A stretch of 26,507 nt of DNA from a virus: positions 1 to 26,507 of IMG/VR virus record IMGVR_UViG_3300036828_000509; one strand, given 5' to 3'. Below, one piece after another: positions 3,514-21,277 of this stretch. The notes under the pieces are model-generated. The model was not told where the DNA came from, made no database searches, and was given only the letters and a program-made list of their open reading frames with translations. Position numbers and translations under genes: made by a program. Every line of letters starts with the position of its first letter. The stretch's first letter is position 1.

Positions 3514-3580
3514 GCAGACACAGGTTGAGGACCTACCACCCTATCCACCACCTCCCCCATCTATCTGTAAGGGGTGTTAA
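3473..3580 (+). other. Candidate proline-rich micro-ORF or frame-shifted tail of the membrane protein
   Basis: In the +1 frame relative to the membrane protein there is an open stretch from 3461 to a TAA at 3578-3580. Its last part reads EQTQVEDLPPYPPPPP and SICKGC. The TAA shares its final base with the ATG of the next gene (TAATG), the same joint seen at three other real gene junctions here. The earliest plausible start is TTG at 3473, without a visible ribosome site; that would give 35 residues. It could instead be added to the membrane protein by a frameshift near its stop, or be chance. It fills the otherwise gene-free 3514-3579 gap. Confidence 0.25.
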
Positions 3581-4920
3581 TGCCGACAGCAGCAGAAGCA
3601 TCAAACTCTAAACCACCTCTTGGTTCGGCACTTGCTGAAGGTGTTCGTTACCTTTCTGCCGATCAAAAAATCGCATTTTCTTTATATCATCGGTATATAT
3701 TCCCACTAGATGGTATGAATTATTGGGTTAGAGTCTTACCGAGCGATACCACGGTTACAACTCCTGGAATTCAAACTACCCCCGGTCTAGCTGCAATGAC
3801 AGATGATGGTGGTGCAGCTATTCAAGTTTCGCCGGGTGGTTTGGGCGCGGCTGATGTTGTAGGTGGTACGATTGCTAATCCTCTTAGTGCTGCTGATCAG
3901 GGATTACCTACGGCAGAATCTTTATTTGTTGATTTCACTGGACCTGCTTACTCTCATGTGACTGCTACAACGCATGAGTTGAAACCTGGAGATAGTATGA
4001 ATATCCCGGCTAATTGCACATCTGGTGCATGGGTCTGTTCTCCTTCTGATAATCATCAATTTACCTGTATCTTACAACAGTCAATATCTTCTGTTACGCT
4101 ACCAACTGATGTTTCGGTTATGGGTTCTTTTCATTATGATTCTAAGATAGAACAAGAAGAAGATGCTACCTATGATTCTAACACTGTAATTTTTTCCTCA
4201 TTGTCAGAAATACAGGCTTTCAATAATGTTGGGCCAGATTACTTATACATTGCTCATTATAAGAATATTACGTTTGCGTTCAGTAGTCGTGGCCGATTAT
4301 ACGAGCAGGCTGATCTTTACCATTATAGTGGACAGGCACTTCGTAGCAGACACGCATCTATGATTATCGATGATCCGACACAATTCAATCCAACGTTGGT
4401 GGTTTCGAATTCGTTACCAATTTGGCTAAATATGCCTAATTATGTCCCTCCATATCCTGGATTTGTATGTCCTATTCCTTTGTATCCTTCTTATTTGGTG
4501 GATGACAATTTACCTCCTCCATTTGGTTCGGTTCACATAGAAAATACAGAATGCCTAGAAATGGGAACTGCTTTTGGCCCTCGTTTACAGCAATCACAGT
4601 TAACAAGAGAAAGAGTTAAAGTTCATCTTTATGGTTGTGATAATTTGATGGCAAGTAATTTCGTTGCTTTTGTTGAACAATATTCTCTTGATTGGATGAA
4701 ACTCGGGTTGTCTGATTCACCGGCAGTTAAAGATATCAAGTTACCACAACCAGAGTTTAAAGTTTTGGCTCAACGCAAATTGGTTGAATTTGAAATTAAC
4801 TATCGGCAGAATGTTATTCGTGATGAATTTCGACAATTCATCGAACATGCCAAGGTTCAATTTTATAATCCTCACTGGTTAACTGATCCACAAGGGACAG
4901 CTCATGCTACAGATCTCTGA
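3580..4920 (+). CDS. Large head/neck structural protein with an inserted NPL-DQG module
   Basis: 446 residues from the ATG at 3580, which has AAGGGG 5 bases upstream; the in-frame GTG at 3574 lies inside that site and is not chosen. The outer parts (residues 20-53, LSADQKIAFSLYHRYIFPLD and MNYWVRVL; residues 178-440, VSVMGSFHYDSKIEQEED, SNSLPIWLNMPNY, DDNLPPPFGSVHIE) resemble an unnamed structural protein family I recall from contractile-tailed phages, in which NYWVRV would run straight into the VMGSFHY strand. Between them, residues about 55-178, sits extra sequence that contains the module also found in the genes at 18265 and 20969. The protein probably forms part of the neck or connector. 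Its 3-prime end overlaps the next gene by 17 bases. Confidence 0.65.
   Translation: MPTAAEASNSKPPLGSALAEGVRYLSADQKIAFSLYHRYIFPLDGMNYWVRVLPSDTTVTTPGIQTTPGLAAMTDDGGAAIQVSPGGLGAADVVGGTIANPLSAADQGLPTAESLFVDFTGPAYSHVTATTHELKPGDSMNIPANCTSGAWVCSPSDNHQFTCILQQSISSVTLPTDVSVMGSFHYDSKIEQEEDATYDSNTVIFSSLSEIQAFNNVGPDYLYIAHYKNITFAFSSRGRLYEQADLYHYSGQALRSRHASMIIDDPTQFNPTLVVSNSLPIWLNMPNYVPPYPGFVCPIPLYPSYLVDDNLPPPFGSVHIENTECLEMGTAFGPRLQQSQLTRERVKVHLYGCDNLMASNFVAFVEQYSLDWMKLGLSDSPAVKDIKLPQPEFKVLAQRKLVEFEINYRQNVIRDEFRQFIEHAKVQFYNPHWLTDPQGTAHATDL
3862..4074 (+). repeat. NPL-DQG module, copy 1 (inserted)
   Basis: Residues about 95-165 of the 446-residue protein. The hallmark is NPLSAADQGLPTAESLF, then an L-x-PG turn (ELKPGDSMNIP) and a closing H-x-FT (NHQFT). 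Copies 2 and 3 are at 18361-18573 and 21056-21277. Similarity is at the protein level; the DNA has diverged. Function unknown; an exposed beta-type decoration or sugar-binding role is a guess. Confidence 0.75.
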
Positions 4921-5230
4921 GACTAACCTCGGGCAAAGAATTGCGGAAAAACCTGGATTACTGAATGGGATTACTGTAGACGAGGCTCCTAAATTTGGTG
5001 GAAAACTTCTTTTGGTGGATAATCAGAATGGTGAGCATGTTATTTTTGCAATGGAACTATTAAGTACGATTTCTGTTGGTGAAGTTCTATTAGCTAATGG
5101 AAATATGTATTTTGATACGCTTGCAGTTAAAGAAATTCCAATAGGAAGTAAGTTCACGATTGATATTGCATCCTATGTGGTAAATCTTACTAAGGAACCA
5201 GAACAGGAGGCAACCCATGCCACAGAATAA
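4904..5230 (+). CDS. Small structural-region protein, unknown function
   Basis: 108 residues, family not recognised. The ATG at 4904 lies inside the end of the previous gene and has AAGGGA about 7 bases upstream, a good ribosome site that decides the start. The sequence alternates short strands and turns (GGKLLLVDNQNGEHVIFAME, ISVGEVLLANGNMYFDTL, IPIGSKFTIDIASYVV), which suggests a small beta-barrel. It ends with an acidic, probably loose tail (TKEPEQEATHATE). The last 14 bases overlap the next gene. By position it belongs to the neck or tail-connector set just before the sheath. It could be a tail terminator or a decoration protein; the sequence does not decide. Confidence 0.6.
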   Translation: MLQISETNLGQRIAEKPGLLNGITVDEAPKFGGKLLLVDNQNGEHVIFAMELLSTISVGEVLLANGNMYFDTLAVKEIPIGSKFTIDIASYVVNLTKEPEQEATHATE

Positions 5231-5591
5231 TGTTTTGCCCGTATGGCGAGCAGATTATCCACTACTTGCGCCGGTTCAGAAGCCGGGAGGAGTGACAGTG
5301 GCGACAACGGCCACTGCTCCTCGTGTTCCCAACAAATTCACCTATTCAGCCGGTACAATCCAAATGGTTGATTTTGAGACAGGGGCAATGAAATTTGAAG
5401 CTCCAGTCGAACCAGTTGCCATCCCGCCAGCAGAAGCTGAAGAAGGGCCAGCTGAAGAGGCGAAAGTTACTACGCAAGAAGAAGCAGAAGAAGAGAATAT
5501 GGAAGAGGTCGAAGAGGAAGATGATGATGGTGATGGAAAGCCTCGTCGTACTACTACTAGGACGACCAGGACCACAACTCGTCGTCGCTAA
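5217..5591 (+). CDS. Protein with an acidic-then-basic disordered tail
   Basis: 124 residues of unknown function. AGGAGG about 6 bases before the ATG is one of the strongest ribosome sites in the window, so it is probably made in quantity. Residues 1-65 include a short possibly folded part (NKFTYSAGTIQMVDFETGAM). Residues 66-107 are almost all Glu, Asp, Ala and Pro, with runs such as EEAEEENMEEVEEEDDDGDG. The last 17 residues switch to KPRRTTTRTTRTTTRRR. Such a charge-block tail is likely disordered and could bind nucleic acid or another charged virion part. A hairpin (CAGTGGC, 5296-5302, pairing with 5310-5316) lies soon after the start. The gene sits directly before the sheath gene. Confidence 0.6.
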   Translation: MPQNNVLPVWRADYPLLAPVQKPGGVTVATTATAPRVPNKFTYSAGTIQMVDFETGAMKFEAPVEPVAIPPAEAEEGPAEEAKVTTQEEAEEENMEEVEEEDDDGDGKPRRTTTRTTRTTTRRR

Positions 5592-5615
5592 CCTATAGTT
5601 AGAGGAACGTGAACC

Positions 5616-7112
5616 ATGGCAGTCCAGACCCAATTTAGCACGGATCCTAATGCGATTGTAACGGTTCATGTTTCAATCGTTGAGGCTCCTACCCCAATCA
5701 ATTATCAACGAACTGGCGCATTTGTGTCGTTCGGTGCAACAACTATGGTCGCTGGAGATACTGAGCTATTGACCCAGCTAGAAGATCTAGGTCAATGGAT
5801 AAGAGGCCAAGCGGCAATTACGTCAGCGAATTGGGCAGGCGGAACAGTCACTGTTTCAACGACCAGCCCAATTCCGAATGTCACCATTGGTGATAATGTG
5901 CCAATGGTGATATCAGGGTTCACCCCTGCTGCATACAATGGTCTCTTTAACGTAATGATCACTGCGAGCAATGCATTCACCTATCCGATTGTAACGAACC
6001 CCGGTGTGGCGACAGTGATCGGAAAGTTCCAATGGGCAAGTTCAATCGAGTTGTCACAAATGGCAACGACCTATTTTGGTCAAGGAAATGAAATTGCTGT
6101 TTGGATTTTGGAACTTGGTTATCAGAATTCTATGAACAATAAGGTGACCGCATTCCAAACATGGTTGACTGCAAATCCAAGGACCATTTATGGGTTCCTG
6201 ATGCCGCGTGCCTTTGGTCAGGATCCAGCGGCGATTCCGGCATGGCCGGGTCTGCCAACACCTGCTCCAGCACCTACGACATGGATGAATCTTCTAAAGC
6301 AATTTCAGGCTCCAGAAACAATGGAATATTTCTGGCTGACTGTAACTCCTAATACGATGCAGACGTTGGGTCCGACGTATAAAGATGTGCTTCAAATGGT
6401 TGAAGCTCCTGTGCTAACAGACCCGACACAAGCCAATATCACTGATCCTAATGGTGAATTTACAATGGCTGCAATGTTCTATAATGCATTGCAGTTCCGC
6501 CCGTCGAATACAAATCGTGTTGCACCTATGGCATTCAGGTTCCTTTATGGTGTAACTCAATATCCGCAAAGGAACAATGGACCACTATTGGTTAGTTTCA
6601 AGACCAATAACACGAACTATGTTTCTACCGGAGCAGAGGGTGGTATCGCATTTACCATGGTCTATGAAGGTGTAACTCTTGATGGTCATGACTATTTTAA
6701 CTGGTGGTATACGATCGATTGGGTTCAGATTGAGATTAATCTAAACCTAAGTAACGCCATCATCAATGGATCTAACAACCCATTGGCTCCACTCTATTAC
6801 AACCAGGATGGAATTAACTATCTGGAAGTTGTACTCTTTGATACGATGCAAAGCGCACAGACTTTTGGTATGGTTTTAGGTAAGATTGAAATGACCCAAC
6901 TCGATGGCCCTGATCTTACAGCGGCAATCTATGGTGGTTCATTTGCCGCAAAGTGCGATGTGAACGCTGTTCCATTCCTTAACTATACGCTGGCAAATCC
7001 CGGTGATTATAAGATTGGTGAGTACGATGGGCTTTCCACTCTGTTTATCCCGGCACGCGGTTTCATTCATATTCTTGTGAATGTTGTCGCATCGGATCTA
7101 GTTTCAATCTAA
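5616..7112 (+). CDS. Contractile tail sheath protein (DUF3383-like)
   Basis: 498 residues. The order sheath, then a small tube gene, then chaperones and tape measure is standard for contractile tails. The C-terminal two thirds match what I know of DUF3383-type sheaths: RFLYGVTQYPQRNNGPLLVS, a DYFNWWYTIDWVQIEINLNL stretch, and a Y-x-x-DGINYLEVVLFDTMQSAQ segment. The N-terminal part begins with VTVHVSIVEAPTPINYQRTG, the usual beta-strand entry of sheath proteins. Residues about 68-140 form an extra beta-rich segment that resembles FCCH-like domains (separate entry). AGAGGA precedes the ATG by about 8 bases. In an assembled particle it would surround the tube and contract on infection. The fold assignment is by pattern and order. 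Confidence 0.75.
   Translation: MAVQTQFSTDPNAIVTVHVSIVEAPTPINYQRTGAFVSFGATTMVAGDTELLTQLEDLGQWIRGQAAITSANWAGGTVTVSTTSPIPNVTIGDNVPMVISGFTPAAYNGLFNVMITASNAFTYPIVTNPGVATVIGKFQWASSIELSQMATTYFGQGNEIAVWILELGYQNSMNNKVTAFQTWLTANPRTIYGFLMPRAFGQDPAAIPAWPGLPTPAPAPTTWMNLLKQFQAPETMEYFWLTVTPNTMQTLGPTYKDVLQMVEAPVLTDPTQANITDPNGEFTMAAMFYNALQFRPSNTNRVAPMAFRFLYGVTQYPQRNNGPLLVSFKTNNTNYVSTGAEGGIAFTMVYEGVTLDGHDYFNWWYTIDWVQIEINLNLSNAIINGSNNPLAPLYYNQDGINYLEVVLFDTMQSAQTFGMVLGKIEMTQLDGPDLTAAIYGGSFAAKCDVNAVPFLNYTLANPGDYKIGEYDGLSTLFIPARGFIHILVNVVASDLVSI
5817..6035 (+). other. FCCH-like module inserted in the sheath
   Basis: Residues about 68-140 of the sheath: a strand with TVTVSTTSP, IGDNVPMVISGFTPAAYNG, then a strand and AFTYPIVTNPGVATVIGKF. 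The scheme (strand, G-D-x-V, ISG, YNG, F-V, FTYP, G) matches segments in the plug (15160-15417) and the J-like wedge (17637-17861). A perfect 10-bp inverted repeat (5881-5890 with 5901-5910) lies inside it. The fold name is inference. Confidence 0.55.
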
Positions 7113-7123
7113 GGAGATAGCCC

Positions 7124-7564
7124 ATGGCCTTTCAGTTCACACCTCCTGGAGTTCTGAATAGGCTCCGGGCCTCTGTCACCTATAGTGACTTTCCACAACT
7201 TAACGTAACATCGGCCTTTCTGACAACAGAAGGAATCAGGTTGGCTTTAGAAGGGAATGCCACAGACTTACTCCCGGCTATGGTCAGTTTGGTGAGTAGC
7301 CCGGCACCATATTTGTCAGCATCATTAACTATGTCTCTTGTGCGGAGTTCAACATTAGCGTCACTCTATAAACTTCAAATCGAAGATACAACGCTCATGG
7401 GACTTGTCACCATTTGGCCTGATACCGATGTGCTAACACCTTTTGTGCTGAATAATGTGGCATTAGAAAGTGTCCGAGAAATGGCTATGGCTGGAATGGA
7501 AGCAGCGATGGTTGTAACTGCACGCGGATACTATAATGTCAATACAGGGTTCTTTGGAACCTAA
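7124..7564 (+). CDS. Probable tail tube protein
   Basis: 146 residues, placed 11 bases after the sheath stop with GGAG upstream of its ATG. Tube proteins of contractile tails are about this long and usually follow the sheath. The sequence has a beta-rich pattern with a helix near the C-terminus: PQLNVTSAFLTTEGIRLALE, LSASLTMSLVRSSTLASLYK, TLMGLVTIWPDTDVLTPFVL, then VRGMAM-like helix residues ESVREMAMAGMEAAMVVTAR. The ending GYYNVNTGFFGT looks like an inter-ring contact tail. It would stack in hexameric rings and form the DNA channel. No catalytic motif is expected. The assignment rests mainly on order and size. Confidence 0.7.
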   Translation: MAFQFTPPGVLNRLRASVTYSDFPQLNVTSAFLTTEGIRLALEGNATDLLPAMVSLVSSPAPYLSASLTMSLVRSSTLASLYKLQIEDTTLMGLVTIWPDTDVLTPFVLNNVALESVREMAMAGMEAAMVVTARGYYNVNTGFFGT

Positions 7565-7575
7565 GGGAGTAAAGT

Positions 7576-8163
7576 ATGGCAGAAGTCAAGCTTAATCGGA
7601 AGTTAGATCTGGTAATGAATGTAGAGTCAGAAGATGGTAAAACTATCTACGTTCATTCTACTCCTATTAGCCGGGAGGTCTTTGAGGATAACTTTCTTTC
7701 CATATCTCGGGCATTCACGGCCGTTTACACAAACGGCCTCGGTCCGGTAACGGGGCCGCGAGTAGCGGCCCTTTTGCTAAAGCAAGAAGCTCAAACCCTC
7801 GGTATATGGGAACGCACTCAACAGTCCCTGATGGCAGAAATCTACCGATTAACAAATGTTATCGTGCCAAGTGACAATGGTTGGGAATCTATCCCATTTG
7901 ATGTAGCAAAGAAGCGTGGAATATTGTCGGACGATAAAGCGTCGGAGGTGGAAAACTGCATCGTATATTTTACATGCGCCTCGTCAATTCATCTGAAAGC
8001 GGAGTTGACGGTGGCGATGGAAGGCTTGAGCACACTCTGGGGCGCGCAAACTACATCATTGAATGCTACGGAATATACCCGTTCTTTGCAGACATTGACT
8101 CGGGCAGAGAGTACTGGCGAGAAGACGAAAATGGCAGTGAATCAATCATCCAATCCTGTTTAA
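7576..8163 (+). CDS. Probable tail assembly chaperone, first frame
   Basis: 195 residues, with GGGAGTAAAGT before the ATG as a good ribosome site. The gene directly before a tape-measure gene usually makes a chaperone that coats the tape measure during tail assembly and is absent from the finished particle. The N-terminal part is a beta domain (KLDLVMNVESEDGKTIYVHS, then TPISREVFEDNFLSISRAFT). It is followed by helices through residue 160 and a probably loose end (STGEKTKMAVNQSSNPV). A second frame overlaps its last 190 bases or so and runs up to the tape-measure start, as in G/GT-type pairs. Two GC-rich hairpins lie within codons 48-67. The call is by context; no specific motif is diagnostic. 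Confidence 0.65.
   Translation: MAEVKLNRKLDLVMNVESEDGKTIYVHSTPISREVFEDNFLSISRAFTAVYTNGLGPVTGPRVAALLLKQEAQTLGIWERTQQSLMAEIYRLTNVIVPSDNGWESIPFDVAKKRGILSDDKASEVENCIVYFTCASSIHLKAELTVAMEGLSTLWGAQTTSLNATEYTRSLQTLTRAESTGEKTKMAVNQSSNPV
7719..7775 (+). terminator. Two hairpins inside the chaperone gene, the second terminator-like
   Basis: Hairpin 1: GGCCGTTT (7719-7726), loop ACAC, AAACGGCC (7731-7738). Hairpin 2: GGGCCGC (7753-7759), loop GAGTA, GCGGCCC (7765-7771), followed by TTTT (7772-7775). The all-GC stem plus T run is the classic intrinsic-terminator shape, though the T run is short and it lies inside a coding frame. It may lower transcription of the distal genes or only fold the RNA. Confidence 0.35.
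7968..8011 (+). promoter_or_regulatory. Candidate -1 frameshift signal
   Basis: In the first frame the codons read TAT TTT ACA, and the run TTTT (7968-7971) lets the Phe codon re-pair one base back. Six bases beyond ACA begins a possible 10-bp stem, 7981-7990 with 8002-8011, including two G-U pairs and an 11-base loop. The heptamer is not of the standard X-XXY-YYZ kind, because ACA cannot re-pair well on TAC. A shift here would enter the frame that is open from 7938 to 8279. Confidence 0.3.
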
Positions 8164-8279
8164 CATGGTTGATGGATGAGGGGTTCAAAGCCTTCTTTGA
8201 CCAGTTCGAAATGTCGTGGCCGCATAACTCCCGGTTAGAGTGGCAACAGCGATACATGATCGCTCTTTGGAAAGCCTAG
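7974..8279 (+). CDS. Probable tail assembly chaperone, second frame
   Basis: The frame is -1 relative to the gene at 7576, open from 7938, and contains 101 residues from the ATG at 7974. Its C-terminal part looks like real protein: IIECYGIYPFFADIDSGREY, then helices ending SRLEWQQRYMIALWKA. The ATG has no ribosome site before it and no better start is visible, so expression as a frameshift fusion with the first frame is likely. Slipping at 7968-7971 would give about 234 residues. Its stop TAG (8277-8279) directly precedes the tape-measure ATG. In G/GT-type systems the fusion form links the chaperone to the tape measure and tube. Independent start by coupling is the alternative. Confidence 0.55.
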   Translation: MRLVNSSESGVDGGDGRLEHTLGRANYIIECYGIYPFFADIDSGREYWREDENGSESIIQSCLTWLMDEGFKAFFDQFEMSWPHNSRLEWQQRYMIALWKA

Positions 8280-11102
8280 ATGGCTAACGTCCAAATCACT
8301 GTCCCAACAAGTTTCTTCCGTAACATGAACCAGTTCATGGTGAATGTGCAGAAGATGCAACAGTTGACGACTCAACTCCAACAATCTACGCAAAGATTAC
8401 CGGCGGCACAGAGTCTTTACCGTGCTCATCATTCTACCGTAAGTCAAATGGGGCGGTTGCTCCAAGTCTTGCGTAAAACATCCGCAAGTTTTCAAAGTGC
8501 CATGAGCTCTATTGTAACTGCTATGGGACCTCTTGGTAGGATGTTTTTGCGAGGTATGACTATAGCTTCTTCAGTACTTGGTGGCATCATTGGTGTGACC
8601 GTAACAGTGGGGACTTTTGCAGTCTCTGCTGCTTTTGCTGCGGCTGGATGGTCTAAGTGGTTATGGAATAAGATGGTTGATCTTGGTGATTCCATGCTGC
8701 AAGATTTTTTGTTTGCATCAGGAACATTATCAACTATTGGTGGAGTAAGAGCATTTGGAGCGGCTTTCGGTAGGCTACCAGAAGATCCTGGAATTCTGCC
8801 TAATATTGCACAGGCTCGTGGTTCAGTTGCATCTAGACAATCAATGGCTCTACAATTGTTAGGAGTTAAACGAGCCAAGGATACTGCTGATATTGCTGTA
8901 TATGCAAGTCTTGCGGCTGCTCGATTCATGAAATCCCAAGCCAGAGGTAATGAACTGGCTATGGCCGAAGCCTTTGGTTTGACTGCTCTTTTCAGTCCAC
9001 AATATCTAATTGCATTGCGGAATATTGATGAAAAAGAACTTGCAGAAATGGCAAGATTATATGAATCATATAAAGGGCAAATGAAAATTTCAGATAAGGC
9101 TAAACAGGGTTGGATAGAATTCTCTCTTATAGTAAAGGGAATGTGGGCGAAGATTGAAACGGTTATTGCTAATGAGCTTGCCAATCCTAATTCAGACTTC
9201 ACGAAAGCAGTTTCTGATTTGAGTAAGAGTCTTGTGCATTTTTTCCAGGTACTTGTGAAAGCACCTATTACAGATGCCATTATAAAGAAGCTAGGACAGT
9301 ATATTGATGAATTTTCACAATGGCTAAAGAGACCAGAAACCGCAAAAGCAATCGATGAGTTTATTGCGGATTTAAAGGATACGGTTAAGCATATAATAGA
9401 CGCAATTCGTTATTTGAAACAGATTATCGATATGTTTCGAGGGACACAGCATCAGTACACTGGTAGAAGAAGGCTCGCCGAACGATTAGGAATAGATAAA
9501 GGAGTGCGTGCTATTTCGGGACCAACATTCCGTCCTGGAGTTGGTCCAGGCCCACGGGGACGGGAGCAAGAAAGACAAACTCGACCATTTGTTTCTAATG
9601 TGCCAAGGGGTCCCAGTGGCGAAATGCCTAAAGGTGGGATTCGTCGATACACAGGTCCAGCTTACCCACGTATTCATGCACCTCCAGTAAGAGAAAGTTC
9701 GACCGGATTACGTGCGCCAACCAAACCGAGTGAAGCACCTGAAACTACTGAAGCAGCAACTAAAGGAGGCTTTGTTCGTGGTAGTGGTATCGTGGATAGA
9801 TCATCAATTGCTAAAGAATTACAGGATAAACCATGGCTTCGCCAAAGAGCTATGGAAATTGCAGCAAATGAGGAAGGGACTAACCAACATGGGACTCAAA
9901 TGATAATCGAGTCCGCAATGAACCGTGCGCAGGTTCGTGGTACATCTTTGGAAAAGGAACTTAGATGGACTTCTGAAGGTGGCTATTATGATGATGCTAG
10001 AGGCCATGGCCGAGCAGTAGCGACAGCGGCAAGTCCTCAAGGTAAAGCTATCCTTGGTCGTTCATTTGATAATGCTTTGGGTGGAAGCAATTTATCTGAA
10101 TATGCAACAGACAACTCATCAGGAGATATGGCTGCAAGAGAAGCAGCATCTGGTAAATTTAAGTTTATCAAGAAAACACCGCAAGGTGATTATATGTTTT
10201 CACCCGGTAGTGCGGAATCAAATCTCGTTCCGAAATATGATAGATGGTTGGCTAAACAGAAAGCTAGAACACCGGGGAGTGTAGGTGGATTTACGGTTCA
10301 AGACATTAAGGAAATGGATGGTCCTCCAACTGCTCAGCAACCATCAACTACTACTCCTGCTTTCGCTGGAGATGCTCGATTAAAGACTGTAGGTAACTAT
10401 CAACTAGGTGGCGATCAACGACGTGCTGCACTTATTCAAGCAGCAGGTGAAGCATCTAAAAATCTTCCACCGGGTTGGCGTATTGAAGCTTATTCTGGTC
10501 AACGAAATCAAGGCCCTCACTCATCTGGTGGTGCAGTTGATTTTCGATTGATTGATCCACAGGGTCATAGTCTTCCTAATTATCAAGATCCAAAATACTA
10601 TGGCATTTATGAAAAATTTGCGCAAGATACACATCTAGTTTTGCAGAAGACTAATCCGGAACTTGCTGCTCAGCATCGTTGGGGTGGTTATTTTTCTGGT
10701 GGTCTTGGTCCCGGTGGTACATATGGTGCTATGGATTTAATGCATCAGGACTTTGCCGGTGGTGATTCTCGTATGGCTGCTGGACAATGGAAAACTGGAT
10801 TGCACTCAGAATGGGCTAGAAGGTGGGGTGTTACTGAATCAAGTTCTGGTATTGCTGATAGGGCTAGATCTAACGCAGCTACTTCACAACTATCTCCATC
10901 ATCGGGAAAACCTTCGCAAGAACTGGCAGATGATTGGAAAGATGTTCCGTTACCTTATCAAACTAAAACAGAAATTGAAATTCGTCATCCTATTGACCAT
11001 GTGAAGGTACATAATCATTCTGATGACGATGTGAGTGCCGCTAAGACTTCATCCGATCAAGATAATGGTGAACTTGAGCCTGCCGAAGATCTAACCAAAT
11101 GA
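8280..11102 (+). CDS. Tape measure protein with two probable wall-cutting domains
   Basis: 940 residues, the longest gene here, directly after the chaperone pair. Residues 14-75 are a helical Gln-rich stretch, residues 94-124 are hydrophobic (SVLGGIIGVTVTVGTFAVSA) and could enter the host membrane, and residues 180-390 are helical and paralogous to the gene at 12483. Residues about 519-660 resemble a SleB-type wall hydrolase: AMEIAANEEGTNQHGTQMII with E531/E532 as candidate acid, then ESAMNRA and NLSEYATDNSSGD. Residues about 700-850 resemble a zinc peptidase of the M15 type: H747-x-x-G-x-A-x-D754 in HSSGGAVDF, and D819-x-x-H822 in MDLMHQDF. It would set tail length and open the cell wall on injection. 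Enzyme classes are pattern calls. Confidence 0.75.
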   Translation: MANVQITVPTSFFRNMNQFMVNVQKMQQLTTQLQQSTQRLPAAQSLYRAHHSTVSQMGRLLQVLRKTSASFQSAMSSIVTAMGPLGRMFLRGMTIASSVLGGIIGVTVTVGTFAVSAAFAAAGWSKWLWNKMVDLGDSMLQDFLFASGTLSTIGGVRAFGAAFGRLPEDPGILPNIAQARGSVASRQSMALQLLGVKRAKDTADIAVYASLAAARFMKSQARGNELAMAEAFGLTALFSPQYLIALRNIDEKELAEMARLYESYKGQMKISDKAKQGWIEFSLIVKGMWAKIETVIANELANPNSDFTKAVSDLSKSLVHFFQVLVKAPITDAIIKKLGQYIDEFSQWLKRPETAKAIDEFIADLKDTVKHIIDAIRYLKQIIDMFRGTQHQYTGRRRLAERLGIDKGVRAISGPTFRPGVGPGPRGREQERQTRPFVSNVPRGPSGEMPKGGIRRYTGPAYPRIHAPPVRESSTGLRAPTKPSEAPETTEAATKGGFVRGSGIVDRSSIAKELQDKPWLRQRAMEIAANEEGTNQHGTQMIIESAMNRAQVRGTSLEKELRWTSEGGYYDDARGHGRAVATAASPQGKAILGRSFDNALGGSNLSEYATDNSSGDMAAREAASGKFKFIKKTPQGDYMFSPGSAESNLVPKYDRWLAKQKARTPGSVGGFTVQDIKEMDGPPTAQQPSTTTPAFAGDARLKTVGNYQLGGDQRRAALIQAAGEASKNLPPGWRIEAYSGQRNQGPHSSGGAVDFRLIDPQGHSLPNYQDPKYYGIYEKFAQDTHLVLQKTNPELAAQHRWGGYFSGGLGPGGTYGAMDLMHQDFAGGDSRMAAGQWKTGLHSEWARRWGVTESSSGIADRARSNAATSQLSPSSGKPSQELADDWKDVPLPYQTKTEIEIRHPIDHVKVHNHSDDDVSAAKTSSDQDNGELEPAEDLTK

Positions 11103-14135: not shown

Positions 14136-14962
14136 TGCCTAATTCACAAATACAGCTATCATATCAAGTCTGCCCGATTATCTTGACTGGTGGTATTGCT
14201 GCCCAGATTCCAGGTGGCATGTTACCGATGCTTCATTTATTCAGTTCAGTTGGCGGTAATTCTTTAGCTCTACCTTTTGAAATGAATGATTTAGATGATG
14301 CCTTCGGTGCATTCAATGTCTTACCGGGTGGCACACTCGTAAGTCAGCAGATTGCCAAGTATCCATTTGCGAATCAAGATGTTGCTGCGAATGCTGTAAT
14401 TCGTGAGCCATTAACTCTATCGGTGATAATGGATGCACCGATGCGTGGGCCGAATGCATGGCAAGTCAAGCAAATTGTCATGAGTATGTTGAAAGCAACT
14501 TTGGAGTCTCACAATAATAGTGGAGGAACCTATACGGTCGCAACTCCAGCATGGTTGTATACCAATTTAGTGATGCTTTCTTTAACAGATAATTCTCGTG
14601 GTAATAACTCATTACCTCAGAATGCATGGAGGTTTGATTTTGAAAGACCACTCGTAGCATTAGCTGAACTTCAGGGTTCTCAAAGTAGTCTTATGGGAAA
14701 GTTATCAAATCAAACGCCTACTTCTGGAACACAGACTGGTATCCAACCCGGTCAAACTTCTGGTCAATCACCATTAAGCGAAATGAATATTCCTCTACCT
14801 CTTCCTAATATAGCTGCTCCACAATTATCTTCATTAGCACAAGCAGCCGGAACTCTATTCGGTGGTACTCCTCCAGTTATCAATAGTGCATTGGGATCAT
14901 TCACTGCTAATTTTCCAGCGATAGCGAGCATGGCTCAGTTTCCATTTAATGGTTTTGGCTAG
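14135..14962 (+). CDS. Baseplate hub or Dit-like protein
   Basis: 275 residues beginning in a TAATG overlap. Residues 1-175 look folded: YQVCPIILTGGIAAQIPGGM, then LPFEMNDLDDAFGAFNVLPG, then REPLTLSVIMDAPMRGPNAW and a segment with YTNLVMLSLTDNS and NAWRFDFERPLVAL. The pattern of a strand ending in W-x-F-D-F-x-x-P-L resembles unnamed proteins that precede the baseplate plug in other contractile phages; I recall the pattern but cannot name the family. The C-terminal 90 residues are Thr/Gly/Pro-rich and probably loose (SNQTPTSGTQTGIQPGQTSG). It lies directly before the plug gene and most likely joins tube and baseplate. Confidence 0.55.
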   Translation: MPNSQIQLSYQVCPIILTGGIAAQIPGGMLPMLHLFSSVGGNSLALPFEMNDLDDAFGAFNVLPGGTLVSQQIAKYPFANQDVAANAVIREPLTLSVIMDAPMRGPNAWQVKQIVMSMLKATLESHNNSGGTYTVATPAWLYTNLVMLSLTDNSRGNNSLPQNAWRFDFERPLVALAELQGSQSSLMGKLSNQTPTSGTQTGIQPGQTSGQSPLSEMNIPLPLPNIAAPQLSSLAQAAGTLFGGTPPVINSALGSFTANFPAIASMAQFPFNGFG

Positions 14963-14970
14963 TTTTTCAT

Positions 14971-15495
14971 ATGACAACAATCATCCCATTTCTTCCTTCT
15001 AATCTAAAGGTGCCAACATTTCTTGCCACATTTGATGGAGATACTTATACGGTTAGAGTAACTTGGAATATATCAGCATATAGATATTACATCAATATTT
15101 ATGGAGCAGATGGAAGCTGGATTATTACTGTTCCATTGATTACTACTGCACCGGGGCGACAAATAAATTCAGTAGTCTATGACCCGTTACAACTTCTATT
15201 AACGTTTCAATTGCCTGATCCAGCAGATTGGCCGTTACCTTTATCTCCTGCAGGAACAAATACTAAACCGGGTACGATAGTAGATTACACCATATCTGGA
15301 TTTCAACCGAATACATATAATGGATCATTTAGATGTTTGCAAATTAATCCTACTACATTTTCAACACCAATGGCAAATGATCCAGGTCCGGTAGTCGTGT
15401 ATGGGGTTGTTGATCGACTTTTAAATATGATAAGTAGTGTGTTCCAAACATCTACGTTAGTCTATCGTAATGGGGCATTCGAGATTAATCCATAA
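14971..15495 (+). CDS. Baseplate plug protein (Pam3 gp18-like) with an inserted module
   Basis: 174 residues. Residues 18-56 (ATFDGDTYTVRVTWNISAYR, then YYINIYGADGSWIITVPLI) match the opening of the phage baseplate plug family known from cyanophage Pam3: a F-D-G-x-x-Y-T-x-R-x-x-W lead and a strand ending in D-G-x-x-I. This small protein closes the tube at the baseplate centre. Residues about 64-149 hold extra sequence with DYTISGFQPNTYNGSF and a late G, resembling the segments in the sheath and J-like wedge. The end (STLVYRNGAFEINP) looks complete. No ribosome site is clear before the ATG at 14971, so the exact start is less certain. The next gene is the spike, as expected. Confidence 0.65.
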   Translation: MTTIIPFLPSNLKVPTFLATFDGDTYTVRVTWNISAYRYYINIYGADGSWIITVPLITTAPGRQINSVVYDPLQLLLTFQLPDPADWPLPLSPAGTNTKPGTIVDYTISGFQPNTYNGSFRCLQINPTTFSTPMANDPGPVVVYGVVDRLLNMISSVFQTSTLVYRNGAFEINP

Positions 15496-15503
15496 GGTGC
15501 AGC

Positions 15504-16442
15504 ATGGGCCGGTATGATTCACATAAGCATCCGTTTCACTATCGAATGAACCAATGGGCGGAAAAGAGGATAAATGATTCTCAGGAGAATCAAGCCAAGT
15601 CTATGCCTTGCCATGTAACAAAGGTTGATAAAGATTTTATCTATGTTGCTTTCGAAAATAAGAATAGTATTTTTACGATGCCTACGGTTAAGATTCCGAA
15701 ATCTAATTCCCAGTATGCCCGTGAACCTACTCAACAAGGGGATAAGGGCTATGCGGTTCCTGGAAATTATTATCTTGGCGGTGTTACTGGTGATGCTGGC
15801 GGTAATACGGATTTTTACCCCCGTGGAAACCTCACGACATTATCCTTCAACGGGGTCAGTCATAAACAAAACCCAGATCGGGATTATGATCAACTGACCC
15901 ATATGGCCGGTCCAAATGGTTGGGTCGCAAGTGCTTTTCAACAACAGCAACAAGATCAAAGTTCAGGTCAGCAAAACGGTGGGACAGGGAATGGTGGAAC
16001 GACAACGACAACTAGTCGAGTTGCTCCTGTAACTCGCACCCGGCAATTTTCACAGCCAATCCATATGCCAGGACAACCTATTAGATTAAGAGGTGTGCAA
16101 CCTCCGGCTGTGAAACCTGCGGCTGGGATACCTCCGGTTCTTACGGGGATTATTGGTGGACTTCTTGGTGGTGGTGGACTAGGAGGTTTATTAGGAGGAC
16201 AACAAGGAGGGCAACAGCAACAGGATAAGACTCTATTTAGCTTCGACAAGAATGGGAAGAGCTTGGTTCAGAGTAAAGATGAAAAACATCAGGTTGTTGT
16301 AGACCAACAGGGTAAGAAAATTGCTCTGAATGTCCCAACTAGTGAAAAAGTGTATACGGGAGGGGATGGTTCACAAGGAAAATATGCTCAGGTTATAACG
16401 AAAGATGGACCAAGTCTCAATACCTATGCACGGATTGGATAA
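15504..16442 (+). CDS. Central baseplate spike protein (Gp138/gpV-like)
   Basis: 312 residues. Residues 30-120 resemble the OB-fold domain of phage spikes: MPCHVTKVDKDFIYVAFENK, then FTMPTVKIPKSNSQYAREPT and QQGDKGYAVPGNYYLGGVTG. Residues 145-235 are a loose linker rich in Gln, Thr, Pro and Gly, with a GIIGGLLGGGGLGGLLGG stretch. The last 75 residues repeat short strands (LFSFDKNGKSLVQSKDEKHQ, VVVDQQGKKIALNV), the usual pattern of a trimeric beta-helix needle. No terminal His-x-His metal site is visible. The needle would pierce the outer membrane after sheath contraction. AAGGTG precedes the ATG, and the next gene starts directly after its stop. Confidence 0.7.
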   Translation: MGRYDSHKHPFHYRMNQWAEKRINDSQENQAKSMPCHVTKVDKDFIYVAFENKNSIFTMPTVKIPKSNSQYAREPTQQGDKGYAVPGNYYLGGVTGDAGGNTDFYPRGNLTTLSFNGVSHKQNPDRDYDQLTHMAGPNGWVASAFQQQQQDQSSGQQNGGTGNGGTTTTTSRVAPVTRTRQFSQPIHMPGQPIRLRGVQPPAVKPAAGIPPVLTGIIGGLLGGGGLGGLLGGQQGGQQQQDKTLFSFDKNGKSLVQSKDEKHQVVVDQQGKKIALNVPTSEKVYTGGDGSQGKYAQVITKDGPSLNTYARIG

Positions 16443-16835
16443 ATGAGAACATATGGTCGAACACGAGATGTCTTAACTGGCGCAAAGACATGGCGGATTG
16501 TGACAACTGATATTAATGGATATAATGATAGTGTTTACCTGACAGCATTGGCTCAGGTTCTAAAACTAAATCTTGGTGAGAGCCCATTCTTTGCTAACTT
16601 TGGAATACCGGCGCATGCTTCTGTTGTTACTCAAATATACCCTGATTTCTTTATGGCATTTACTCAACAGCAATTTGCTCCTTATTTTGCAGCATTAATT
16701 TTGACTGCCCAACCTGATGCAGTAGATGATGATAATAGACCTGCACCATCTTATCAGATAAATGTGCTTACGAATTTTGGTTCTCGAATTGGGGTTCAAG
16801 TAAAGCTTGACTATCCACTACAACAACCGATCTGA
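16443..16835 (+). CDS. Baseplate wedge protein, gp25/W-like
   Basis: 130 residues. Small proteins of this size between the spike and J-like genes are usually gp25-like (gpW of P2). The sequence fits: a short N-terminal lead, RIVTTDINGYNDSVYLTALA, then QVLKLNLGESPFFANFGIPA, which is the L-x-x-x-x-GE-x-x-F-x-x-x-FG-x-P pattern of that family, and a C-terminal half with a strand ending YQINVLTNFGSRIGVQVKLD. It would bind the sheath to the wedge and start contraction. The start codon follows the spike stop directly and the stop is 6 bases before the J-like gene, whose ribosome site (GAGGA) overlaps this end. Confidence 0.65.
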   Translation: MRTYGRTRDVLTGAKTWRIVTTDINGYNDSVYLTALAQVLKLNLGESPFFANFGIPAHASVVTQIYPDFFMAFTQQQFAPYFAALILTAQPDAVDDDNRPAPSYQINVLTNFGSRIGVQVKLDYPLQQPI

Positions 16836-16841
16836 GGAACA

Positions 16842-18263
16842 ATGGCTGTTCTACCTTTAATCATGACGTCGCAAGGCTTGCAACCGGCAGCTCCAGCAGA
16901 TTTGCGAGCACAACTCATTTCGCTTGTATCTGCAACTAATCCTGATTATACCGCAAACCTTCCAGGTTCGTTGATCGAGGATATTTCGAGCACTGATGTC
17001 TATGCTCTTGTGGTTAGTGATAGTTTCCTTGTAGATCTAGTGAACTCACTTACGCCATTTGGAGCTAATGCATTCTTATTAAATCAGCTTGGTACTCTCT
17101 ATGGTATAGATCCACAACCAATTACGAATACAGCGGTCTATGTGGTTTTTACAGGGAACCCCGGTTATGTAGTCGCTCAAGGATTTGTTGTAGGTGACGG
17201 AACTTATCAGTATGTTTGTCAGGATGGTGGGATTTGTGGAAATGATGGTCAGACCCTACAGATCTATGCTCTGGCTACACAACCGGGAACATGGGATGTT
17301 CCACCGAATACTGTAGTTCAGGCGATTACCTCTGTTCCGGCTAATGTTGCGTTGTCAATCACTAATCCTGTTGCTGGTATACCAAGTTCATCTGGCGAAC
17401 CAATGTCGGTATTTCGAGAGCGTTGCTGGACAGCCGGTCTTGCAGCCTCCACTGGTATGGCACGTTATCTAAAAACACAACTCAGTAATATTCCCGGTGT
17501 CCAATATCGTCTTATCGCGGTTGTTCAAAATACTGATGGAACATATACGATTCTGTGCGGTGGTGGAGATCCTTATCAGATTGCTTATGGAATTTGGAAC
17601 TCTGATTTCTATATCCCAGGTTTATCTGGTGCCACTATTGAAATTTCCGGTATCTCGAATACTAACCCGATTGTAATTTCGACAGCTAATAATCATAATC
17701 TAGCAACTGGTGATATTGAAATGATAAATGGGAATGTTGGTATTCCCTTTCTAAATGGTTACACATATCCGGTAACTGTTACAGGTCCGCAAACATTTAC
17801 GATTCCTGTAGACGGAACACATTGGGGTCAATGGCAATACGGTGGAACAGTTACACCGAACCCAATAAATGAAATTATTACGATCACAGATTATCCAGAT
17901 GGATATGCAATTCCATTTGTAATCCCGGCACAGGAGCTTGTGAATATTGTAGTGACTTGGCAAACAGACTCACCAAACTATGTTAGTGAATCTGGTATGG
18001 CTCAGGCAGCCGTTCCTGCTATAGTTGATTACATCAACAGCTTACCGGCTGGAACGACGCCTATTAATTTGAATATGTTGACAAAAGTTTTTATAGATGC
18101 TGTGTCTACCATTCTACCGGGTGAAGCTATTATTGATATATTGTTTACGATTTCTGTTAATGGTCTTGGAGTTTTGCCGCAGGCAGGAACTCAAGTTATC
18201 TTTGGCGATCCTTATAGTTATTTCTACACACAACCGACGAATATATCTGTAGTGAAGGGATAG
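16842..18263 (+). CDS. Baseplate wedge J-like protein with an FCCH-like insertion
   Basis: 473 residues. The pattern of a J-like protein is clear: ADLRAQLISLVSATNPDYTA, then LPGSLIEDISSTDVYAL and the L-x-x-L-G-x-x-YG-I segment (NQLGTLYGIDPQ), then SSGEPMSVFRERCWTAGLAA and a C-terminal IVDYINSLPAGTTPINLNML. In other members, GGDPYQIAYGIW would pass soon into the ITITDYPDGYAIPFVIP strand. Here about 75 extra residues (266-340) lie between, and these look like an FCCH-type domain. The protein forms part of the wedge ring that holds fibres. GAGGAACA before the ATG is a good ribosome site. Confidence 0.8.
   Translation: MAVLPLIMTSQGLQPAAPADLRAQLISLVSATNPDYTANLPGSLIEDISSTDVYALVVSDSFLVDLVNSLTPFGANAFLLNQLGTLYGIDPQPITNTAVYVVFTGNPGYVVAQGFVVGDGTYQYVCQDGGICGNDGQTLQIYALATQPGTWDVPPNTVVQAITSVPANVALSITNPVAGIPSSSGEPMSVFRERCWTAGLAASTGMARYLKTQLSNIPGVQYRLIAVVQNTDGTYTILCGGGDPYQIAYGIWNSDFYIPGLSGATIEISGISNTNPIVISTANNHNLATGDIEMINGNVGIPFLNGYTYPVTVTGPQTFTIPVDGTHWGQWQYGGTVTPNPINEIITITDYPDGYAIPFVIPAQELVNIVVTWQTDSPNYVSESGMAQAAVPAIVDYINSLPAGTTPINLNMLTKVFIDAVSTILPGEAIIDILFTISVNGLGVLPQAGTQVIFGDPYSYFYTQPTNISVVKG
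17637..17861 (+). other. FCCH-like module inserted in the J-like wedge
   Basis: Residues 266-340: IEISGISNTNPIVIST, then NNHNLATGDIEMINGNVG, FLNGYTYPVTVTGPQTFTIP and a W-Q-YGGTV end. The order NP-x-V-x-x-T, H-x-L-x-x-GD, LNG-x-x-Y, TFT, GG-x-V is what I know from the E1 FCCH-like domains often seen in phage proteins. It is the clearest of the three such segments here. Confidence 0.65.
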
Positions 18264-18264
18264 T

Positions 18265-19506
18265 ATGGCTCAGTTATTTATTCTATCTCCAGGGTTAACT
18301 TCCCAGGTATCGGTTGCACAGACATCTGAACAATTAGCTAATCCTAAGATTAATCAGAAGGGTGGATTAATCTTCAATCCACTTTTAGCTCAAGATCAAG
18401 GCGTAGCTGTTGCTGAATCTTTATTTATTAACCTTTTAGGTCCTGCTGGAATAGCCGAAAACACCCCAACAGGTACGACACGACTTTCACCGGGTCAAAA
18501 CTTCTTAGTCCCTCCTGGAGTTAATGTCTGGGTAAATGCTGAAACAAGTGGCCATCAATTCACAGCATATTTTACTTCTACGTATACTCCGACATTTCCA
18601 CCGGGGCCAGTTCCAGGTGCACCGGGATTCAGTTTCTTAGGTGTTACTCCATTTCCTCCTGGACAGGTTACTGGATTAACGAAAGAAATTCCGTCGTATC
18701 TATATCAAGAATATTCTGATGATGATGATTTACAAGGGTTTGTAGATGCTCAGAATAATCTTCAGCAGAATTATGTGGACACGTTCAATGCATTGAACCT
18801 GCCCATATATCCAGGCCCAATTGTTTCTGATAAGTTGCTTGATTGGGTAGCCCATGGACTTTATGGATTTCCACGTCCTGCTCTATCAAGTGGAATAATT
18901 ATTAGAGAGGGGCCGCTGAATACATGGGGACCGAATTATTTAATTCCTACTGAAAACGCTAATATCAATGGTCTTGGACAAGTTGCTGATGAAACTGTTG
19001 TTGTTACAGATGATGACACATATCGTCGATGCCTAACATGGCACTTCTATAAGGGTGACGGTAAATACTTCAATACTCGTTGGCTCAAGCGTCGGATTTG
19101 GCGATTCTTGTATGGTACAAATGGATGGTCACCAGATTATGCTCAGGACCCGACAACAGGAACAACGCCTCTATCAGGACAAGCTGATTTAGATGATGCT
19201 TATATTGCTGATACTGAACAAATCAGCATTACGTTTGGGACAAATAGAGAAGTTACGATTCGGTTTATATTGGGGCAACGAACCGTAACTGGCGGAGCAA
19301 TGCTCAATGCTTTTGGATGTAATGGGTTTGGACCACCATCTTTTCCAACAGTGAATAAAAACTTTGCTCCAATTCCATTGAATGATATAGAATCAACTTA
19401 CGTGCATTATCTTCCGCTACCTTATATGTCAATCTTCCAGGAGGCTCTGCAATCTGGTGTGCTAGAAATGCCGTACCAATTCAACTTTAACGTCGTTATA
19501 GGTTAG
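18265..19506 (+). CDS. Baseplate wedge protein in the gpI position, with N-terminal NPL-DQG module
   Basis: 413 residues with AAGGGA before the ATG. Residues 33-103 are copy 2 of the NPL-DQG module (NPLLAQDQGVAVAESLF, then RLSPGQNFLVP, closing GHQFT). A Pro/Gly-rich linker follows to residue 140. The main part (143-413) has SYLYQEYSDDDDLQGFVDAQ, a helix ending LLDWVAHGLYGFPRP, and LTWHFYKGDGKYFNTRWLKR followed by RIWRFLYGTNGW. Proteins with this plan follow the J-like wedge in many contractile phages, where gpI would be. It probably links the wedge to fibres; the N-terminal module could face outward. The Asp run at 151-154 is odd but may only be a loop. Confidence 0.65.
   Translation: MAQLFILSPGLTSQVSVAQTSEQLANPKINQKGGLIFNPLLAQDQGVAVAESLFINLLGPAGIAENTPTGTTRLSPGQNFLVPPGVNVWVNAETSGHQFTAYFTSTYTPTFPPGPVPGAPGFSFLGVTPFPPGQVTGLTKEIPSYLYQEYSDDDDLQGFVDAQNNLQQNYVDTFNALNLPIYPGPIVSDKLLDWVAHGLYGFPRPALSSGIIIREGPLNTWGPNYLIPTENANINGLGQVADETVVVTDDDTYRRCLTWHFYKGDGKYFNTRWLKRRIWRFLYGTNGWSPDYAQDPTTGTTPLSGQADLDDAYIADTEQISITFGTNREVTIRFILGQRTVTGGAMLNAFGCNGFGPPSFPTVNKNFAPIPLNDIESTYVHYLPLPYMSIFQEALQSGVLEMPYQFNFNVVIG
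18361..18573 (+). repeat. NPL-DQG module, copy 2 (N-terminal)
   Basis: Residues 33-103 of the 413-residue protein. GG-x-I-x-NPL opens it, DQGVAVAESLF follows, LSPG marks the turn, and HQFTAYF closes it. Between NPL and H-x-FT the spacing agrees with copies 1 and 3 within a few residues. Confidence 0.75.
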
Positions 19507-19516
19507 GATCGCGATC
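19507..19516. repeat. 10-bp perfect palindrome filling an intergenic gap
   Basis: GATCGCGATC reads the same on both strands and is exactly the gap between the TAG of the wedge gene and the ATG of the fibre gene. It holds two GATC sites. TAGGAT just before may be the ribosome site. A stem of this size has no loop in RNA, so a DNA-level or chance origin is more likely. Confidence 0.4.
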
Positions 19517-20956
19517 ATGACTATCTTGTGGAGCAATAACGCCTCTACAACTGTTTCGGGGAGCATCACCCCGACAGCAACATCCGTAGCTCTTGCGGCT
19601 GGAACAGGTGTCGAATTTCCTAGCCCAACTGGAGGTGACTATTTCTGCGCTACATTCTACGATCAAGCTACAAAGACTATTAATGAAATTGTGCATGTGA
19701 CTGCTCGTTCTGGAGACGTTTGCACTATTGTTCGTGCGCAAGAGGGTACGGTTGCTGGAACATGGAACGCTGGTGATATATTCGCAAATCTTGTGACTGC
19801 TGGAACTCTAAGAGCTTTTGTTCAAGCTGGAGTAGGACCAGCAAATACATCTCTTGTCTATGTTGGTACGGACGTATCAACTACTCCTGGTCTGATTGTT
19901 TGCAACACCAATCCAGTTCCATCATCACTTGCGGTTGGTATGCTGTTCAATATTTGGGTAAAGAATACAAATCCTGGTCCTGTTAATCTTCAACTCAATG
20001 GTGGTGCATCAATTGCGGCTACTCGGGCTAATGGTGCCGCGATGGTTGGCGGTGATTGTACTGCCAGTGAAGAAATGATGTTTGTCTATAATGGTGTTAA
20101 CTTTAATACAATGATTCCTAATATTTTGAATCATCCACCACAAACCACATTCTATGTCCGAACTGATGGAAACGACAATAATACAGGTTATGCGAATACA
20201 CCAACTGATGCATTTGCTACTACTTATGGAGCAATTAATGCAATTAGATCTAGGTATACGTCTCAAGATCAAATAACTATTCGTGTTGCTGATGGAAGTT
20301 ATATTGGTGGCTTTGGAACCTCTGGTGGATATATTGGTTCATGGAATATAATTGGTAATGTATCTAATCCTGGCAATGTCACCATTGATGCAACTTCACT
20401 TTCTCCTCCTGCTGGCTCTATAGGAGGAAGTGCAGTTGCTTCTTCAAGTGGCGCGGTTATAACTGTTTCAGGAATGACGTTCAAGGGTTATTATGATAAT
20501 GTAGTATCGGGCGAGGGTGCTACTCTTCTTGTACATGATTGTCATTTCACTGGTTCAAGATCTGGTAGTGGCAGCGCAGTTGTTTCTCTTGAAAATGCGA
20601 TCACAGAAATTTGGGGAACTTGCCAGTATGATCCGAATGGATATAACTCGGCAGCTTGCTTCGCAGCATCTTCTGGAGGGTTTGTGGTTGTTGCATATCA
20701 TGACGCCTATCAAAATTATCCATTGAACTGGAGCTTTGTGGGAGCCGTCCCAGCCTTTGCTTCTGGAACTGCTTCTGCGAATTCAGGTGGATTGGTACAA
20801 ATTGATGCGACAAATACGGCATGGAGTGGAAACGTTCCTTCAGGATACAAGTATGTTGCTCAAACAGGAGGAGGCGTGTTTGCTATGTCAGGCAGTATTA
20901 ACACATTCCCAGGAACTGTAGCAGGGATAGTCACGTCTCCTGGATGGTTGGCATAA
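19517..20956 (+). CDS. Tail fibre or tailspike with a beta-helix domain
   Basis: 479 residues. Residues 1-100 are a virion-binding type domain common at the start of phage fibres: DYFCATFYDQATKTINEIVH, VTARSGDVCTIVRAQEGTVA, then NAGDIFANLVTAGTL. Residues 108-200 form a second beta domain. From residue 211, TFYVRTDGNDNNTGYANTPT followed by TYGAINAIRSRY is the standard entry to a right-handed beta-helix like those of tailspikes. The helix continues with short strand repeats to about 400 (ADGSYIGG, NPGNVTIDATSL, AVITVSGMTFKG, GATLLVHDCHFTGS). The end is Gly/Ser/Ala-rich. It would bind, and may cut, a surface sugar. No catalytic residues can be named with confidence. Confidence 0.75.
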   Translation: MTILWSNNASTTVSGSITPTATSVALAAGTGVEFPSPTGGDYFCATFYDQATKTINEIVHVTARSGDVCTIVRAQEGTVAGTWNAGDIFANLVTAGTLRAFVQAGVGPANTSLVYVGTDVSTTPGLIVCNTNPVPSSLAVGMLFNIWVKNTNPGPVNLQLNGGASIAATRANGAAMVGGDCTASEEMMFVYNGVNFNTMIPNILNHPPQTTFYVRTDGNDNNTGYANTPTDAFATTYGAINAIRSRYTSQDQITIRVADGSYIGGFGTSGGYIGSWNIIGNVSNPGNVTIDATSLSPPAGSIGGSAVASSSGAVITVSGMTFKGYYDNVVSGEGATLLVHDCHFTGSRSGSGSAVVSLENAITEIWGTCQYDPNGYNSAACFAASSGGFVVVAYHDAYQNYPLNWSFVGAVPAFASGTASANSGGLVQIDATNTAWSGNVPSGYKYVAQTGGGVFAMSGSINTFPGTVAGIVTSPGWLA

Positions 20957-20968
20957 GAGGAGAAAACT

Positions 20969-21277
20969 ATGGCAACGACTCCTGTCGCAGGTCCTAATAC
21001 CCAAACATCACCCACTCCTGGAACGGCACTTATCGCCATAGACCAGAATATGTCTGGTGGCTATATTGTAAATCCACTTCTGGCATCAGATCAAGGTATT
21101 GCTGTAGCAGAGGTATTGTTTGTTAATCAAGTCACATTGGCTAGTGTAGTCGCCAATCAGACGACTATTGCACTTCAGCCGGGTCAATCATATACTGTAA
21201 TTCCAAACACGACAACTCCTGTTACTGTTGCTGCTCAAAGTGCGAGCCATAAGTTTACATCGGTAGAATGGCCATGA
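20969..21277 (+). CDS. Free-standing NPL-DQG module protein
   Basis: 102 residues with a strong ribosome site (AGAGGAGAAAACT before the ATG). Almost the whole protein is copy 3 of the module: residues 30-100 hold GGYIVNPLLASDQGIAVAEV, then LFVNQ, ALQPGQSYTVIP, and the closing SHKFTSVEWP. The first 29 residues are Thr/Pro-rich and may be a flexible lead. The two larger proteins with the same module are at 3580 and 18265. The protein lies between two fibre genes, so it may sit on the virion surface, aid fibre assembly or bind a sugar. Function unknown. Its TGA overlaps the next gene. Confidence 0.7.
   Translation: MATTPVAGPNTQTSPTPGTALIAIDQNMSGGYIVNPLLASDQGIAVAEVLFVNQVTLASVVANQTTIALQPGQSYTVIPNTTTPVTVAAQSASHKFTSVEWP

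Follow-up and report, generated by a model that had tools for sequence, protein, structure and literature searches.

Comparable Domains in Described Phages

Unrelated virion proteins are known to share optional domains, which are usually read as adhesins and whose function is rarely testable from sequence. A surface-adhesion role of this kind has been proposed for Ig-like domains such as Hoc. Domain sharing and mosaicism among phage tail proteins have also been well described (Smug et al. 2023, PMC10684548). In Agrobacterium phage Milano (PMC10491603), the neck is disulfide-linked and the collar protein gp13 carries an inserted beta-rich jelly-roll decorating (D) domain, which decorates the outside of this neck-region protein and is reported to resemble glycan-interacting proteins. 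Another relevant protein is phiM5_13 of Sinorhizobium phage phiM5. Its annotation notes detection in the proteome of the phage particle, its gene lies just after the major capsid gene, and its closest relatives are in Rhizobium and Ochrobactrum phages.

Here, we describe a domain, referred to as the module, that is present three times in a single contractile-tail locus. The window, i.e., the whole stretch of DNA analysed, is a 26.5-kb IMG/VR tailed-phage record from a virus of bacteria, and encodes a sheath (5616-7112), a baseplate hub (11099), a baseplate J-like protein (16842-18263), and fibre genes from 19517 onward. Like the Ig-like accessory domains of T4 Hoc and other proteins, the module is an optional domain common to unrelated virion proteins, but its fold differs as far as tested and it is tied to one fibre type. 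Unlike the domains of mosaic tail proteins, its copies stay at fixed positions and are not shuffled. The likeness to Milano lies in a jelly-roll inserted into a neck-region protein, whereas the host is a collar protein there and a neck/tail-terminator protein here; the available excerpts of the Milano report also mention no D domain on the baseplate or as a protein of its own (PMC10491603). The PDB search yielded no sequence match to Milano gp13, and gp13 is absent among the fold matches listed, which excludes nothing.

Some further features of the gene layout were observed in passing. A minus-strand ORF between the head genes (1045-1440) has, by eye only, the look of an HNH/AP2-type homing endonuclease. 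Residues 88-136 of the sheath align with residues 97-145 of the protein encoded at 14971-15495, a 49-residue stretch with 37% identity (E ~1e-6), and residues 279-338 of the J-like protein form an insert matching Pfam E1_FCCH (5.4e-08).

One Domain in Three Virion Proteins

Copy A (3739..4095, plus strand) interrupts the 3580 protein, copy B (18265..18576, plus strand) forms the N-terminal part of the 18265 protein, and copy C (20969..21277, plus strand) is a free-standing protein of 102 residues. Their conserved cores, likewise on the plus strand, lie at 3862-4071 (residues 95-164), 18361-18570 (residues 33-102), and 21056-21265 (residues 30-99), respectively, where an earlier sequence-only reading had correctly placed them. 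The module length of 70 residues given in that reading was too short: the domain measures ~100 residues, and extra N-terminal strands seen in the structural models (residues 21-24 of the 20969 protein; 64-68 and 81-84 of the 3580 protein) belong to it, which places the stretch inserted in the 3580 protein at about residues 54-172.

Pairwise BLASTP comparison of the three copies revealed 41-46% identity over 70-74 residues, with E values of 4e-15, 2e-15, and 6e-18. When a profile of two copies was matched against the third, scores of 54-68 bits were obtained, compared with 6-13 bits for the best of 2000 shuffles, which rules out chance similarity. Together with the common fold of the 20969 and 3580 protein models, these matches bear out the earlier proposal of one homologous domain in three virion proteins. 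The most conserved residues are the same in A, B, and C (GG, I, NP, D41, Q42, G43, E48, PG, H94, and F96), and the conserved loop columns N35, P36, D41, Q42, G43, and E48 are present in all three copy classes. The copies are clearly diverged at the DNA level and each has a GC content of 0.42-0.43, the same as the rest of the window; they are therefore not recent duplicates. A search of all six frames of the window yielded no fourth copy.

Predicted Fold and Distant Relatives

An AlphaFold2 model of copy C, built with 42 aligned sequences, reached a pLDDT of 94. Its nearest solved folds according to VIA-align are a designed double-stranded beta-helix (Z 7.7), spore-appendage pilins (Z 6.9), and many cupins (Z 5.7-6.7), among others, where all the beta-helix and cupin matches stay below Z 8 and thus do not prove a shared fold family. 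The module segments of the copy C model and of the 3580 protein model match the same PDB entries, so that structure prediction and fold comparison, the check suggested with the original observation, gave one fold for both. On these models, the module is predicted to be a cupin-like jelly-roll domain of ~100 residues lacking the cupin metal site. Ig-type entries are absent among the fold matches listed, which does not exclude an Ig fold. In a viral structure library, many uncharacterised phage proteins match the copy C fold, three of them at E < 0.001; a protein of Pseudomonas phage tf_61 is probably among these fold-level matches, without sequence support.

The likeness to the cupin superfamily consists of the predicted fold and weak, sub-threshold Pfam cupin matches, and the difference is that the module lacks HxH. 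This cupin metal-binding motif 1 was found in 0 of 132 module copies, which rules out a cupin enzyme. None of the Pfam cupin matches exceeds its curated cut-off (Cupin_1 scored 13.1 bits against a cut-off of 22 for copy B of the window); copy C of the window had no Pfam cupin match, and the best among the 42 members was at E 0.0032. No real relative was retrieved when the PDB sequences were searched with profiles of A, B, and the module.

As the initial reading had recognised no named family, it is consistent that no Pfam match passes the cut-off and that the only family-level relation found is to phrog_22789 (PHROGs v4), a family of unknown function. Its profile matches 27 of the 42 module sequences (best E 9.3e-07), including the free copy of locus L037 (1.9e-05), while copy C of the window alone reaches only E 0.12. 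Conversely, phiM5_13 is matched by the module profile with 22 bits (E 6e-9), a result that later backed a tblastn search with the L037 free copy in which phiM5 was the only hit, at E 0.8; a tblastn search of 50,697 phage records with copy C had no hits at E 1. The module thus appears, from these profile matches, to belong with phrog_22789 as a distant branch. The likeness lies in phiM5_13 being a small free-standing protein whose gene is found immediately before that of a virion hydrolase. The differences are that phiM5_13 and its relatives LG08_122 and ZX86_88 lack the conserved NP..A.DQG...E loop, and that no internal or N-terminal copies of phrog_22789 are known from neck or baseplate proteins. 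No module was found in the plasmids searched, and the genome contigs contained a single module locus, in a Rhizobiales MAG.

Host Proteins at the Neck and Baseplate

The protein interrupted by copy A (phrog_6359; 3580..4920, plus strand) has an N-terminal neck/stopper-like part that is split by the module, and a C-terminal domain with a tail-terminator fold (~4399-4812, plus strand; residues 274-411). In the model of the full protein, the module occupies residues ~64-171 with a pLDDT of 89-96 and breaks up the N-terminal neck-like domain, the two parts of which together match the Pam3 neck protein (Z 8.5). For residues 274-411, matches to tail terminators reach Z 10.2 (118-129 aligned residues, rmsd 3.4), and terminator or neck proteins make up nearly all of the top 31 chains. 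These fold matches place copy A on a neck/tail-terminator protein, in agreement with the neck location originally suggested for it. The gene order also corresponds to a neck-tail junction position upstream of the sheath, with two small ORFs separating the A gene from the sheath gene at 5616; in phage PdC23, the gene in the sheath position directly follows the A gene. At least one cysteine is present in 16 of 20 A copies (three in that of the window), in contrast to most B and C copies, which are cysteine-free; the cysteines of A could form disulfide cross-links at the neck.

Copy B has been added to the N-terminus of a phrog_8212 protein, the gene of which comes immediately after that of the baseplate J-like protein. 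The module is followed by a Pro-rich linker (18577..18675, plus strand) and the body, or host core, of the protein (18676..19503, plus strand); a relative in PdC23 is annotated as DUF2612. The slot in front of this core holds other additions elsewhere, namely a 268-residue domain in L249 (2694-4196) and internal repeats in L270 (3078-4184), from which the N-terminal end of protein B seems to accept different domains. Pfam searches with the L249 domain returned nothing usable, and its lectin-like character is only an impression.

An Optional Addition Gained and Lost

Among the best 80 homologues of protein A from environmental viral contigs, the module is present in 28, always in the same place, and absent in 52; among 77 homologues of protein B from the same kind of source, 41 carry it and 36 do not. 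Both host proteins are also free of it in Pantoea phage PdC23, Klebsiella phage RothD, and the Yersinia and Shewanella phages, and none of the five records of cultured relatives searched contained a module copy; for one phage record, L003, only two virion proteins were used, as its flank included unrelated toxin genes. Since module-free, uninterrupted homologues of A and B are common, the module is, as far as homologue comparison can tell, an optional add-on that is dispensable to its host proteins. An integral part of these proteins, the outcome against which the sequence-only reading had weighed its proposal, is ruled out by the same uninterrupted homologues.

Two loci bear on the direction of change. 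In L241 and L267, the B module is absent, the Pro-rich linker is kept, and the B proteins are nested among module-bearing relatives (99% SH-aLRT). The retained linker together with this nesting reads as a loss of the B module. L267 also lacks C and fibre 2, and its fibre-1 type gene is still there.

In a tree of 132 module copies, which has few columns and leaves the deep branching unresolved, the labels A, B, C, and other require 4 changes where the minimum possible is 3, with all A copies grouped in a single clade (SH-aLRT 98). Such clustering by protein position rules out frequent hopping or gene conversion among sites, and the description of the module as mobile does not hold in the sense of ongoing hopping. 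The tree indicates instead that the module entered each site on one or a few occasions and has been inherited since, with losses. Among 30 larger records, one group combines B and C copies with an uninterrupted A, and another has all three copies. Most records fit a simple 0-2-3 order of acquisition, but contig G031 (locus L232), the only record found with the module in A, none in B, and no free copy, does not, and no such order is claimed.

Coupling of the Module to a Second Fibre

Copy C is encoded between two fibre genes. Fibre 1 (19517..20956, plus strand) has an N-terminus of the ANNAQSTLAG... type that is also found in module-free phages. Directly downstream of C lies fibre 2 (21268..22200, plus strand), whose start codon overlaps the end of C and whose C-terminus is fibritin/foldon-like. 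Near its N-terminus, fibre 2 carries a Gly/Pro-rich peptide, GAGAGGPLPPSSPW (21310..21351, plus strand), of a type common to fibres encoded just after C. Across loci, C mostly touches or overlaps the next gene.

A free copy C is present in 28/28 B-module loci with enough downstream sequence and in 0/25 module-free B loci; scans of entire contigs (up to 74 kb) from module-free relatives found no module copy, and the module-free phages looked at keep a fibre-1 type gene. An N-terminal GP..P.PW peptide on a downstream gene occurs in 37/43 B-module phages versus 0/23 module-free phages, a truncated B locus being left out of these counts; as the pattern was framed after the module-bearing loci had been viewed, 37/43 is not blind and 0/23 is the informative figure. 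The co-occurrence counts (Fisher tests) do not represent independent events, and the tree of B cores is the fairer measure: the B module was gained or lost at least 5 times (best estimate 8), and C follows suit in 5/5 independent pairs with support (p 0.0625, the number of pairs being too small for significance). Judged from the gene content of these loci, the PW-tagged fibre is gained and lost together with copies B and C. As B, fibre 1, C, and fibre 2 are all encoded within 4 kb, linkage could account for part of this joint gain and loss.

Signal-peptide-like N-termini, which are odd for virion proteins, were noticed on many fibre genes after C (L032, L035, L063, L084, L130, and others) and on free modules of unrelated phages (L038:9704-10222, L071:1086-1442, L089:7830-8231). 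L038 is a 14-kb podovirus-type record (phrog_332 connector, phrog_212 major head protein) in which the gene of the module protein sits immediately upstream of a pectin-lyase-type spike gene.

Possible Roles of the Module

We tentatively favour, over a host-glycan binder, a role of the module as a structural clip by which the second fibre is mounted on the virion, a reading that is plausible yet falls somewhat short of probable. Free C subunits would bind the Pro-rich PW N-terminus of the second fibre, module B would give this fibre (or C) its baseplate seat, and module A, inserted in the neck protein in one sub-lineage, would repeat the same surface at the neck, for example by holding fibres along the tail before infection. 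The gene pair of C and fibre 2 would then look like the module-linker-body order of protein B split over two chains. The conserved N-P-x-x-A-x-D-Q-G...E loop is the likely contact site: as it is missing in the phrog_22789 relatives, the fold can probably form without it, and it represents the best candidate for a working surface. Counting against the clip, G031 indicates that copy A can exist without the B module and C.

Rates of divergence bear on the same question. Over up to 12 relatives, the median identity to the window is 67% for C and 68% for the A module, compared with 66% for the sheath, 69% for the J-like protein, and 66% for the A core, and with only 46% and 47% for the distal parts of fibre 1 and fibre 2, respectively; B modules evolve slightly faster than their own host core (52 vs. 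58%), which counts against the clip. The sheath-like rates of C and the A module, unlike those of the distal fibres, suggest a structural contact rather than a variable receptor binder, and the glycan-binding function first proposed is disfavoured in so far as it implies a variable role in host recognition.

The chief rival, which we consider somewhat unlikely, is a surface-adhesion decoration in which the module binds to a polysaccharide that is common on the host or in its surroundings and display at several sites raises avidity. Jelly-roll folds are common in carbohydrate-binding proteins, and free, internal, and terminal copies in virion proteins would suit such a role, as would the different large domain in the N-terminal slot of B in L249; the inserted jelly-roll of the Milano collar is likewise reported to resemble glycan-interacting proteins (PMC10491603). 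However, C and A modules are conserved like sheath and baseplate proteins and far more than the distal fibre parts, a free adhesin would not be expected to be tied strictly to one type of fibre, and no carbohydrate-binding family match rises above its cut-off.

That same conservation, typical of structural proteins, would equally suit a cement or stabiliser that only stiffens the neck and baseplate, in A perhaps through cysteines, with no role for the fibre. The cysteines in 16/20 A copies, the disulfide-linked neck of Milano (PMC10491603), and the relative phiM5_13, annotated as particle-detected and encoded just after the major capsid gene, all point in this direction, but the reading leaves the coming and going of C and copy B with the PW-tagged fibre unexplained and is regarded as improbable. 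Exchange of B, C, and fibre 2 as one linked block, with the resemblance of modules B and C as only a relic of duplication, fits their location within ~4 kb but is highly improbable, as the B core and fibre 1 are retained despite their location between the changed parts, and L241 and L267 without the B module keep the linker, with B cores nesting in module-bearing B proteins and a fibre-1 type gene retained in L267.

Implications

The mounting clip can be taken one step further, to a single adaptor jelly-roll that occurs free, as a baseplate seat, and as a neck seat in one lineage and fixes a fibre at both tail ends. This extension is unlikely; if true, fibres would be mounted in a way that differs from the known T4-type and P2-type attachments. 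What is new about the family is that a single particle uses it in three places, that its gain and loss are documented, and that it is tied to one type of fibre. The hundreds of homologues with and without the module form a natural presence/absence series, and the link of the module to one fibre and one short peptide would reduce the question of its function to a simple binding test. Taken together, these properties make the module a candidate modular part for the mounting of phage fibres.
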